Shown in pieces: positions 35,633-60,908 of a DNA stretch of 64,000 nucleotides. Below the pieces are notes generated by a model. The model worked only from the letters and a program-made list of their open reading frames with translations. It was not told where the DNA came from and did not search any database. The position numbers were made by a program, and so were the translations under genes. Each line of letters starts with the position of its first letter. Position 1 is the first letter of the stretch. The stretch lies in assembly GCF_012027325.1 (NCBI RefSeq), contig NZ_SNUG01000001.1, positions 310,001-374,000 of the forward strand, written 5' to 3'. The DNA is from Thermococcus sp. M39. GTDB lineage: Archaea; Methanobacteriota_B; Thermococci; Thermococcales; Thermococcaceae.

Positions 35633-35891
35633 CAAACTTTGCGAAGACAAAGTTTGATCAAAGTCCGTTTATCCTTCTCTAAATGTCACTATTCGAGTGG
35701 ATTCTTAACCAATTGACAATTCTTCTAAGGTTTCACTCTAAAGGCACTTAAAAACGCAAAAGGAACAGAAAACACCTTAAGAACTGTTCCTAATTAAGAA
35801 TCTAATTACATTGACAATCCTAAAAAGATAAACAACCCTTTTCAGCCCTTTAAAGAGCTTAGCACATTTTGATCAAACTTTCCAAAGTTTG
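35633..35891. mobile_element. MITE-like element with terminal inverted repeats beside tRNA-Arg
   Basis: Left end 35633-35662: CAAACTTTG-CGAAGA-CAAAGTTTG overlapping TTTGATCAAA. Right end 35868-35891 is the same in inverted orientation: TTTGATCAAA overlapping CAAACTTT-CC-AAAGTTTG. So two ends of 24-30 bp are inverted copies and are themselves palindromic. The ~200 bp between them has no gene but holds AGGAACAG/CTGTTCCT, an internal inverted repeat (near 35779 and 35802). It looks like a non-autonomous element or a remnant of one inserted at the tRNA 3' end; no transposase is present. Origin is inferred. Confidence 0.5.
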
Positions 35892-36286
35892 AAAAATTAC
35901 ATCCCCCACGACCCCTCCTTACTCTCTAGGCTACTGGAAAACTATGCTCTCCTCACCCCCTAGCTAAAAGATGCTGATTTTTCTCAAAACATTTGCGTGT
36001 TGCTTTATTTCTAGATTTTGTTAGAAGATGCTCAAAAATAACCTTTCTTTCTGATATAATGCCGGCAGTTGTATGCAATCTCGGAAGAATGAGAGCTGAA
36101 AAATATACACCCCTACATACCTCTGTATCAAAATAGGAGCCCCTACCCGGGTGGTGCCTTTTATTTCGCTGATTGTCTATATATGAAAACCTATCAAACT
36201 CAACATACCTAAAAATTTTCAATTAGGCATTTACATGGGATATATTAGCGTACAGCTGATTAAAAGCCGTGAGAGTGCTTTATTTA
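35892..36286. other. Gene-free region before the histone gene
   Basis: About 400 bp of AT-rich DNA without a convincing gene. A short GC-rich stretch (near 36139-36162, with ACCCGGGT) is followed by TTTTATTT and could be the end of a small transcript. A TATA-like CTATATATG lies at 36177-36185. A minus-strand reading frame here is of biased composition and lacks a ribosome site. Confidence 0.4.
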
Positions 36287-57956: not shown

Positions 57957-58718
57957 ATGGGTATGCCAAGCTGGGAAGAAAACAGAGTTTTAGTCCTCGG
58001 ACATAGAGGTTTTATGTCAAAATATCCTGAAAACAGCATTTTGGCGTTTGTTGAGGCAATTAGTGCAGGTGCAGATGGTATTGAGCTTGATGTCTGGCTG
58101 ACCAAAGATGGAAAAGCGATAATAATGCACGATGAAACTTTAGAAAGAACTGCAAAGATAAAGAAAAAGACTAAAGATGTTACTCTTGAAGATATAAAAT
58201 CAGCTGACCTGGGAATGGGGCAGAGGGTTCCAACCCTTGAGGAAGTTTTTCAAGCTATCCCAAAAGATGCTCTCGTTAATATTGAGATTAAGGATGTCGA
58301 TGTTGCTGAGGAGAGCATTAAAATTGTTAGAGATTTTGATGCCTGCGATAGGGTTATGATTTCTTCATTCAACATCGATGCCCTCAGAAAAGTTAGAGAA
58401 TACAGTAAAGATGTTAGGCTTGGTCTTTTGATTGATAATGAGCAGATAGTCCCACAGATTCCCAAACTAAAAGAGGAACTTAAGCTATGGTCTGTGAACG
58501 CTCCCATGGAAGGAATCCCAATCATTGGATTTGAAAAGTTTAAGCAAGCTTTGACTTGGGCTAAGAGCTTAGGATTGAAGGTTGTTCTTTGGACTGAAAA
58601 TGATGAGCTGTTCTACGTAAATGACAACTTAAAGCGCTTAGTGGGTCTTTTTGATGTCGTCATTGTCAACGATGTTGTAAGAATGATTGACTATTTGAGG
58701 AGTTTGGGTTTGAGGTGA
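57957..58718 (+). CDS. ugpQ: Glycerophosphodiester phosphodiesterase, canonical copy
   Basis: A 253-residue GDPD with full motifs: [21 protein letters not shown] (HRG and PEN), [25 protein letters not shown] (Glu, Asp and His of the active site), and VNIEIKDVD. It cleaves deacylated phospholipid headgroups to glycerol 3-phosphate, or in archaea perhaps exogenous ones. ATG 57957 or 57963 may be used. With the glycerol kinase and GlpA gene it forms a glycerol-compound degradation cluster. Confidence 0.88.
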
Positions 58719-58865
58719 TTTCTTCTTTTGTTCTCTTCCCTTCTGTAGACCAGTATATTTACCAAGGATTAAACAATATAGCTACAAAAAGTTGAAGGTA
58801 GACTTGTTAGAGGTGAATGGCTTCCGAGTGGATGGAATATGTGAGGGAGAAGTTAAAGAAAAGAG

Positions 58866-59228
58866 CTAAGATTCTTTTGCATTCTTAATGTCGATTTCAA
58901 CGCCCTTGGCGATGGCTTCTTGCTTCTTGGAGTTTTAGCTTAAGTTGTTCTCGTCCATGCCTAAGCCAAAGTAGTGCCAATCCAGTAGCTCCCCAGAAAA
59001 CATAATCCAATCCACGGAACAAGCATTGTCACTCCCATTGAGAAGAGAGCTAATCCGAGAACCATCGATACTATATATCTTGAAACTTCTCTCAATGGCA
59101 TCTTCCAGCTCATAAATTAGTGGCTCTGCCTTTTTAATAGTATCGCTTGACCAGTCTACCCATGGGGCATATATCATAGGTAGCACCCCATCAATCATGA
59201 GATAAATTCCAGCCTGAGAAACGTTCAT
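58866..59228 (-). pseudogene. Decayed membrane protein gene
   Basis: On the minus strand pieces of one protein lie in three frames: MNVSQAGIYLMIDGVLPMIYAPW from ATG 59228, then EVSRYIVSMVLGLALFSMG-type hydrophobic text, then GATGLALLWLRHGREQLKLK, and lastly SKKQEAIAKGVEIDIKNAKES ending at a TAG (58866-58868). At least three frameshifts are needed to join them. It looks like a small membrane protein lost by decay; the family is not recognised. Upstream of it lies the hairpin element. Confidence 0.6.
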
Positions 59229-59238
59229 TTCCCTTCTC

Positions 59239-59392
59239 CCGAAGGGTGAATATATGGGGTGAGGGGGCGTTAGCCCCCCAATAGATAAGAAAAAGCGAGG
59301 TGTGGAGCGGAGCTCCACTACGGGGGATTGAAGGTAGAGGAAGATAAGGGGGCGGAGCCCCCTTGTCGTCCCTCACCGAAGGGTTAATATAT
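59239..59392. repeat. Three-hairpin element bounded by a duplicated promoter
   Basis: CCGAAGGGTGAATATAT (59239-59255) and CCGAAGGGTTAATATAT (59376-59392) are direct repeats with one mismatch; the right copy is the glpK promoter. Between them GGTGAGGG (59258-59265) and CCCTCACC (59370-59377) form inverted ends, and inside are three strong hairpins: GGGGGC-GTTA-GCCCCC (59263-59278), GTGGAGC-GGA-GCTCCAC (59302-59318) and AGGGGGC-GGA-GCCCCCT (59347-59363). The layout fits insertion of a small palindromic element that duplicated its target. No protein is encoded. Confidence 0.65.
59376..59392 (+). promoter_or_regulatory. glpK promoter
   Basis: CCGAAGGG followed by TTAATATAT is a strong BRE/TATA element 35 bp upstream of the glpK ATG; it is also the right-hand repeat of the hairpin element. 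Confidence 0.6.
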
Positions 59393-59426: not shown

Positions 59427-60908
59427 ATGGACAAGTTTATACTTTCTCTTGATGAAGGAACAACTTCTGCTCGAGCGATAATCTTCGACAAGGAGAGTAA
59501 CATCTTAGGGGTTGGACAGTATGAGTTTCCCCAGTATTACCCAAAGCCAGGCTGGGTTGAGCACAATCCTGAAGAAATATGGGATGCTCAGCTTAGAGCT
59601 ATAAAAACAGCCTTGGAGAAAGCCAAAATCATCCCGGAGCAGATAGCAACGATAGGGGTAACAAATCAGAGGGAAACTACAATAATATGGGACAAAGATG
59701 GAAAGCCCGTTTACAACGCTATAGTGTGGCAGTGCCGCAGAACTGCGGAGATGATTGAAGACATCAAGAGAAATTACGGTGAAATGATAAAGGAGAAAAC
59801 CGGTTTAGTCCCAGATGCATACTTCTCGGCATCAAAGATCAAGTGGCTCCTTGACAACGTCCCAGGTTTGAGAGAAAAAGCTCAGAAAGGGGAAGTGATG
59901 TTTGGAACAATTGACACCTTCTTGATTTACAAGCTCACAGGGAAGCATGTTACTGACTATTCCAATGCCTCAAGAACTATGCTCTTCAACATCAAGAAGC
60001 TAGAATGGGATGAGGATCTTTTGGAAATCTTCGGAATTCCAGATGCAATTCTGCCGGAGGTTAAGGAGTCGAGTGAAATTTATGGTTATACTAAAAAAGA
60101 ACTGTTTGGTGTTGAGATTCCAGTAAGCGGAGATGCTGGGGATCAGCAGGCAGCTTTGTTTGGGCAGGCGTGCTTTGATGAAGGTATGGTGAAAGCAACC
60201 TATGGCACTGGAAACTTCATACTCGTCAATACAGGTGATAAAATAAAGTATTCCCAAAACCTTCTCACGACCATAGCTTGGGGATTGAATGGAAAAGTCA
60301 GCTATGCCCTCGAGGGAAGCGTTTTTATAACCGGCGCAGCTGTCCAGTGGCTTAGGGATGGGTTAAAAATTATCAATAGTGCAGCTGAAACTGAAGAACT
60401 TGCATCAAAGTTAGCATCAAATGATGGAGTTTACTTTGTACCAGCCTTTGTCGGTCTCGGTGCTCCTTACTGGGATCAGTTTGCAAGGGGTTTGATAATT
60501 GGTATAACAAGAGGCACTACAAGGGAGCACTTCGCGAGGGCTACGCTTGAGGCGATAGCGTATCTCACGAAAGATGTGATAGATGAGATGGAGAAGGAAG
60601 TTCCAATCAAAGAGCTTAGGGTTGATGGGGGGGCAACCAAGAACAACTTCCTCATGCAGTTCCAAGCTGACATCTTAGGAAAAACGGTCATAAGACCTGT
60701 TGTTCAAGAGACAACCGCTTTGGGAGCTGCATATCTTGCTGGTTTAGCAGTGGGCTACTGGGAAAGCTTGGAGGAAATCGGAGAACTTTGGAAAGTTGAA
60801 AAAGTGTTTGAGCCAAAGATGAACGAGAAAGAGAGGGGAAAGCTCTACAAGGGTTGGAAAGAGGCCGTAAAGAGAGCTCTAGGATGGGCGAGAATAGTTG
60901 AGAGCTGA
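59427..60908 (+). CDS. glpK: Glycerol kinase
   Basis: FGGY-family kinase making glycerol 3-phosphate from glycerol and ATP. The 493 residues have the N-terminal phosphate-binding signature [14 protein letters not shown], the substrate region [29 protein letters not shown], and the C-terminal FGGY signature [25 protein letters not shown] 59427 is 35 bp after a strong BRE/TATA element with GGTGG upstream. It lies in a cluster with GDPD and glycerol-3-phosphate dehydrogenase genes. Confidence 0.97.

Follow-up and report, generated by a model that had tools for sequence, protein, structure and literature searches.

A dispersed three-hairpin repeat of the Thermococcaceae lies upstream of glpK and at the 3' ends of stable RNA genes

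Results

The stretch of DNA analysed here, 64,000 nucleotides in length and referred to below as the window, belongs to a genome of 2.28 Mb in 54 contigs (G000). It carries glpK, a glycerol kinase gene of the FGGY carbohydrate kinases (59427..60908, forward strand; Pfam FGGY_N/FGGY_C), and upstream of it on the same strand gdpd2, a glycerophosphodiester phosphodiesterase gene (57957..58718; Pfam GDPD), which, judging from synteny in outgroups, is the ancestral upstream neighbour of glpK. Between the two genes lie a frameshifted pseudogene from a cassette family of small membrane proteins (58866..59228, reverse strand; three-frame translation), a 17-bp repeat CCGAAGGGTGAATATAT (59239..59255, forward strand), a block of three hairpins that we call element A (59256..59373, forward strand) and a second 17-bp repeat CCGAAGGGTTAATATAT (59376..59392, forward strand). 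The features that the initial annotation listed near glpK are all present where it placed them, including the pseudogene beside the left 17-mer, whose reading frame is broken and whose C-terminal tail QEAIAKGVEIDIKNAKES resembles the tail QEAIAKGVEVGMKKAKET of an intact relative.

The two 17-mers differ by one mismatch, and no other site in the 64-kb window matches either of them with fewer than two mismatches. The left repeat forms the promoter-like end of the adjacent cassette, at the 5' end of the small-membrane-protein genes and the pseudogene, and sits within a recurrent 28-bp motif, CATTTCCCTTCTCCCGAAGGGTGAATATAT; the right repeat, which is BRE/TATA-like, does not have this longer motif. 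In five genomes (G003, G005, G006, G015 and G025) the 28-bp motif is found upstream of unrelated cassette genes without the hairpin element, and the motif CATTTCCCTTCTCCCGAAGGGTTAATATAT, of which the left 17-mer is an instance, precedes cassette genes whether the hairpin element lies beside it or not. Most other copies of element A that were inspected carry no such promoter motif on their left. The promoter region around the right 17-mer is conserved in G002 and G006, both of which lack a complete element A, and is more diverged in the outgroups G010 and G014; the outgroups have neither a copy of the left 17-mer nor hairpins. The initial annotation had taken the right 17-mer for the glpK promoter, a reading that this conservation in relatives without a complete element A supports, and the predicted promoter predates the hairpins. 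It had also proposed that the element duplicated this promoter. This proposal does not hold, because the left motif recurs at loci without element A and the family's one filled/empty pair shows no target duplication. From sequence comparison, the two 17-bp repeats are predicted to be two similar promoters rather than a duplication made by element A, and an extra transcript starting from the left motif is possible. At L031 in G015, at the start of a contig, the motif stands in tandem copies (TTTCCCTTCTCCCTCCGGATATTTATATAT repeated), perhaps as multiplied promoters.

Comparison of the site among relatives, including those without the element, shows how variable this interval is. In the outgroups G010, G014, G030, G024 and G009 gdpd and glpK are separated by less than about 80 bp without hairpins, so that the region is not an ancestral glpK regulatory sequence and an ancestral glpK regulatory RNA is ruled out. 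In genus g1 the gap ranges from 102 to about 3200 bp and holds variable cassettes in all genomes but G002, among them HEPN plus nucleotidyltransferase genes, AF2212-like plus PIN genes, and minus-strand genes for small membrane proteins. Element A is complete at glpK in G000 and G004; in G003 and G005 the left end is preserved and runs into a different repeat, and in G006 all that survives is a 3'-end remnant (GATAAG...TCGTCTCTCACCGAAGG). The G002 site is not cleanly empty, as a lone companion hairpin is present. These comparisons suggest that element A reached the glpK site before the species of the window and G004 separated, and its arrival probably was earlier still within the genus. The region 58719-59255 of the window and the gdpd-glpK gap of G003, G004, G005 and G006 are also a hot spot of exchangeable cassettes.

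Element A comprises the hairpins P1, GGGGGC-GTTA-GCCCCC (59263..59278), P2, GTGGAGC-GGA-GCTCCAC (59302..59318), and P3, with 15-nt arms around GGGGGC-GGA-GCCCCC (59339..59371), all given on the forward strand. The MFE of the block is -56.1 versus -40.5 +/- 3.7 in dinucleotide shuffles (z -4.3), and RNAalifold applied to the family returns three hairpins. In a MAFFT alignment that was not fitted to the structure there are 19 double-change cells versus 3.1 in shuffles, a value that also exceeds the slid controls. The structure-fitted alignment of 75 distinct copies gives 171 double-change cells versus 29.3 in shuffles, at 21 of 27 pairs, with 97.8% of cells paired and the optimum at slide 0. Compensatory changes occur at all five modelled stem pairs of P1 in these 75 copies and as UA/CG, GC/AU and CG/UA exchanges in P2, while P3, whose usual form is GAGAGATAAGGGGGC / GCCCCCTTGTCTTTC, shows the strongest conservation within the family; the window copy has the P3 subtype GGAAGATAAG that is also seen behind Hsp20-like genes. 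The linker GGGGGTTTGAGAGTACAGAGAGATAAGG is near-invariant across the family. The forward strand has a lower MFE than the reverse strand in 31 of 31 copies (means -58.7 and -47.5), all 31 retain a U-G pair in P3, and the G-U and U-G pairs of P3 would become A-C on the opposite strand. Because of these pairs and the better forward fold, the forward strand, as RNA or as single-stranded DNA, is the form that the folding models predict to be kept. The 8-bp inverted ends of the block, GGTGAGGG (59258-59265) and CCCTCACC (59370-59377), are found only in the glpK copies; they are probably a coincidence, since the other family members begin with GGGGTGTGGGGG, finish with CTTTCGT and have no such ends.

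The hairpin block had been taken for an element, and further copies are indeed present in the same genome and in relatives. BLAST with the 112 bp between the repeats matched 51 of 94 family genomes, many of them at identical sharp ends (1-112), and a covariance model built from 31 aligned full copies located element A in 64 of the 94 Thermococcaceae genomes, with at most 12 copies per genome; the model had no match in 21 additional genomes from the class. G000 has three copies, at C1:369256 (the window copy), C1:268321-268453 and C4:100920-101024. For the window copy, which is itself among the sequences of the model, cmsearch gives a match at 59256-59375 with 123.7 bits and an E-value of 7.7e-27. 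Element A was not found in the plasmid collection and viral contigs, and an exact-pattern scan of genome contigs returned six stretches, all from metagenome-assembled genomes of Thermococcus or Thermococcaceae. Among the copies compared, the closest to the window copy is its counterpart at the glpK site of G004, with 93% identity; identity to every other copy is 79% or less. In general, two copies from a shared site in different genomes are only about as similar as two from a single genome, which may reflect long persistence by vertical descent, exchange among copies, or a combination of the two.

Rfam 15 has no match to element A at the gathering score, and the only families matched beside it are tRNA and sR36; a weak match to a Brucella sRNA (26.8 bits versus a gathering score of 241) was taken as chance. 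Neither the sequence nor a description of element A was found in the open-access literature with the terms used, and a literal search of the open literature with one hairpin string matched only an unrelated virus paper. We therefore provisionally regard the family as previously undescribed and unnamed.

A survey of 72 copies reveals a marked preference in position. In 29 of them the 3' end of the element lies at the 3' end of a tRNA gene in antisense orientation, with 13 anticodons represented, and 26 of these 29 share a single spacing of 2 nt from ...CGT to the CCA end; none of the 72 has a tRNA within 60 bp of its left end. Eleven copies adjoin sR36, a C/D RNA (RF01124), nine lie behind the stop codon of an Hsp20-like gene (assigned from its sequence rather than by profile search), a position common to many genomes, and seven occur at the site TTGCAAAAA. 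In genus g1 a further copy is situated a short way upstream of a gene (L003, L081). A single clean filled/empty pair came to light, at tRNA-Gln(TTG): in G077 CCACA is followed by CAAACTTCG, and in G036 it is followed by the element, ACGAAAG...CACACCCC, and then by CAAACTTTATC. At the empty site of this single pair CCACA directly joins the next repeat, with otherwise intact flanks and no duplication, which implies that element A was inserted, or left, precisely. At tRNA-Gln(TTG) and tRNA-Leu(CAA) some genomes show another kind of hairpin element at almost the same position, and a few show none; because the same tRNA can carry element A, other hairpins or nothing, a hairpin is not required for the tRNA gene.

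Several other hairpin elements were observed in these genomes. One of about 300 bp, element B, has inverted hairpin-forming ends (CAAACTTT..AAGTTTGACCAAGG) and is found at L019:1615-1916 and related tRNA-Gln loci; in G033 and G077 it lies at CCA plus 2 nt of tRNA-Gln. In G000 a companion hairpin similar to those of element B, CAAACTTTT..AAAAGTTTGATCAAAG, in intact or decayed form, directly follows about 8 of the 30 tRNA genes inspected. A third type, CAGCCCTTGC..GCAAGCGCTGGCGGAA, occurs at the same point past tRNA-Leu CAA 3' ends (L220, L224, L237, L238 and L246). The window itself has, at 35860-35965 on the reverse strand, a decayed sequence in which element A is combined with the companion hairpin TTTTGATCAAACTTTCCAAAGTTTG, seen as a weak model match (17.7 bits, E 0.014).

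Discussion

The explanation that we favour, and consider reasonably probable as a whole, is that the family of element A is an interspersed repeat of about 120 bp specific to Thermococcaceae, mobile but non-autonomous, which inserts precisely and without target duplication and prefers the 3' ends of RNA genes. Its mobility is suggested by the patchy distribution and by the one filled/empty pair, although this pair can also be read as loss. Weighing against it are the absence of the Y1 transposase from G000 and most copy-rich genomes and that of element A from the TnpB loci of G000, the plasmid collection and the viral contigs. The element would spread by a mechanism that inserts it precisely with no target duplication, and it would land preferentially with a gap of 2 nt between its own 3' end and that of a stable RNA gene. 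The glpK copy would have landed between the promoter-like end of the island and the older glpK promoter, and its position there hints that it may now act as a transcriptional boundary that keeps island transcription out of the glpK promoter. A more general proposal is offered tentatively, as one that we think has somewhat less than an even chance of being correct: Thermococcaceae may harbour a class of small mobile hairpin elements not described before, element A and its companions B and C, which insert almost to the base at the 3' ends of genes for tRNAs and other stable RNAs. Target duplication was lacking in the tested case, and the cue may be where the RNA gene ends and not what sequence it has; the glpK copy would then have landed before the promoter of a protein gene.

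The strong covariation would fit a selected cellular function too. Element A could thus be a selected structured RNA or a cis-acting RNA element, such as a terminator, an insulator or a small RNA, at many positions, and at glpK it would halt island transcription or form an RNA begun at the left 17-mer. The compensatory changes, the forward-strand bias, the near-invariant linker, the copies that many genomes share behind the Hsp20-like gene and the second genus g1 copy shortly upstream of a gene all agree with this idea. However, many genomes do without element A, the same tRNA may bear it, other hairpins or nothing, Rfam offers no match at its gathering score, and a shared promoter motif is not seen to the left of most copies, and we judge this explanation rather unlikely. 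Cassette exchange, in which recombination between similar promoter motifs (CCGAAGRGTTAATATAT) swaps genes and element A is a passenger, concerns the repeats and the island and is compatible with a mobile repeat. It would explain why promoter-like repeats bracket cassettes, and it agrees with the differing cassette sets in the gdpd-glpK gap of the genus and with the motif at several junctions, but the motif may be merely a common promoter type, and we rate this exchange as slightly less probable again.

Two explanations based on known transposition fare worse. Hairpins near both ends, the single-strand bias and the lack of target duplication would suit either what is left of an IS200/IS605 or TnpB guide-RNA unit or a REP mobilised by a Y1 (RAYT) transposase. 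Such an origin is nevertheless very unlikely, as the element A model has no match at the 12 TnpB (PF07282) loci of G000, and the Y1 transposase (PF01797) is absent from G000 and most copy-rich genomes and does not track the copies, being present in 15 of 64 copy-bearing versus 10 of 30 copy-free genomes (Fisher p 0.33). Least likely of all is the transposable element with a 17-bp target duplication at the glpK promoter that the initial annotation proposed. The 17-mers do flank the block exactly, with one mismatch between them, but the left motif accompanies the cassette family without element A, the left repeat and not the right is part of a longer motif, and the filled/empty pair has no duplication.

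A repeat family whose fold is maintained through compensatory change, and which keeps a constant distance to many unrelated tRNA ends and to a C/D RNA, poses the testable question of how an insertion machinery, or selection, would recognise the 3' end of an RNA gene, and this question is sharpened by the little sequence that the RNA genes concerned have in common. It also carries a caution for archaea, that promoter-like repeats around an insert are not necessarily target duplications.

The closest cases described so far are repetitive structured non-coding RNAs of P. abyssi, sRk48/sRk52 and sRkB/sRkC. They are reported to be linked to OrfB transposase genes, and sRk48/52 has copies throughout Pyrococcus and a K-loop (PMC3124441). 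Like element A these are repeated, structured intergenic sequences of Thermococcales, the P. abyssi ones being partly transcribed (PMC3124441), but element A does not lie at the TnpB loci of G000, and the two are set apart here by their descriptions rather than by sequence comparison. Element A resembles the bacterial REP and BIME sequences, which are likewise short intergenic hairpin formers that occur in several copies per genome and in mosaics with other hairpin modules. It differs from them in its length of about 120 bp, its three ordered stems, its low copy number (at most 12), its location at RNA gene 3' ends and its lack of association with a Y1 transposase. With MITEs it shares a small size, the absence of coding sequence and a dispersed, patchy occurrence among related genomes; unlike MITEs, it has no family-wide terminal inverted repeats, and its one filled/empty pair lacks a target duplication; element B, of about 300 bp with hairpin inverted ends, is a closer fit to them. 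Among mobile elements that target tRNA genes, the TRE retrotransposons of Dictyostelium and Ty3 of yeast are found at a fixed position relative to these genes. Element A shares with them this fixed position and a possible safe haven, but it belongs to another domain of life, is tiny and non-coding, abuts the 3' end of the tRNA and also uses a C/D RNA.
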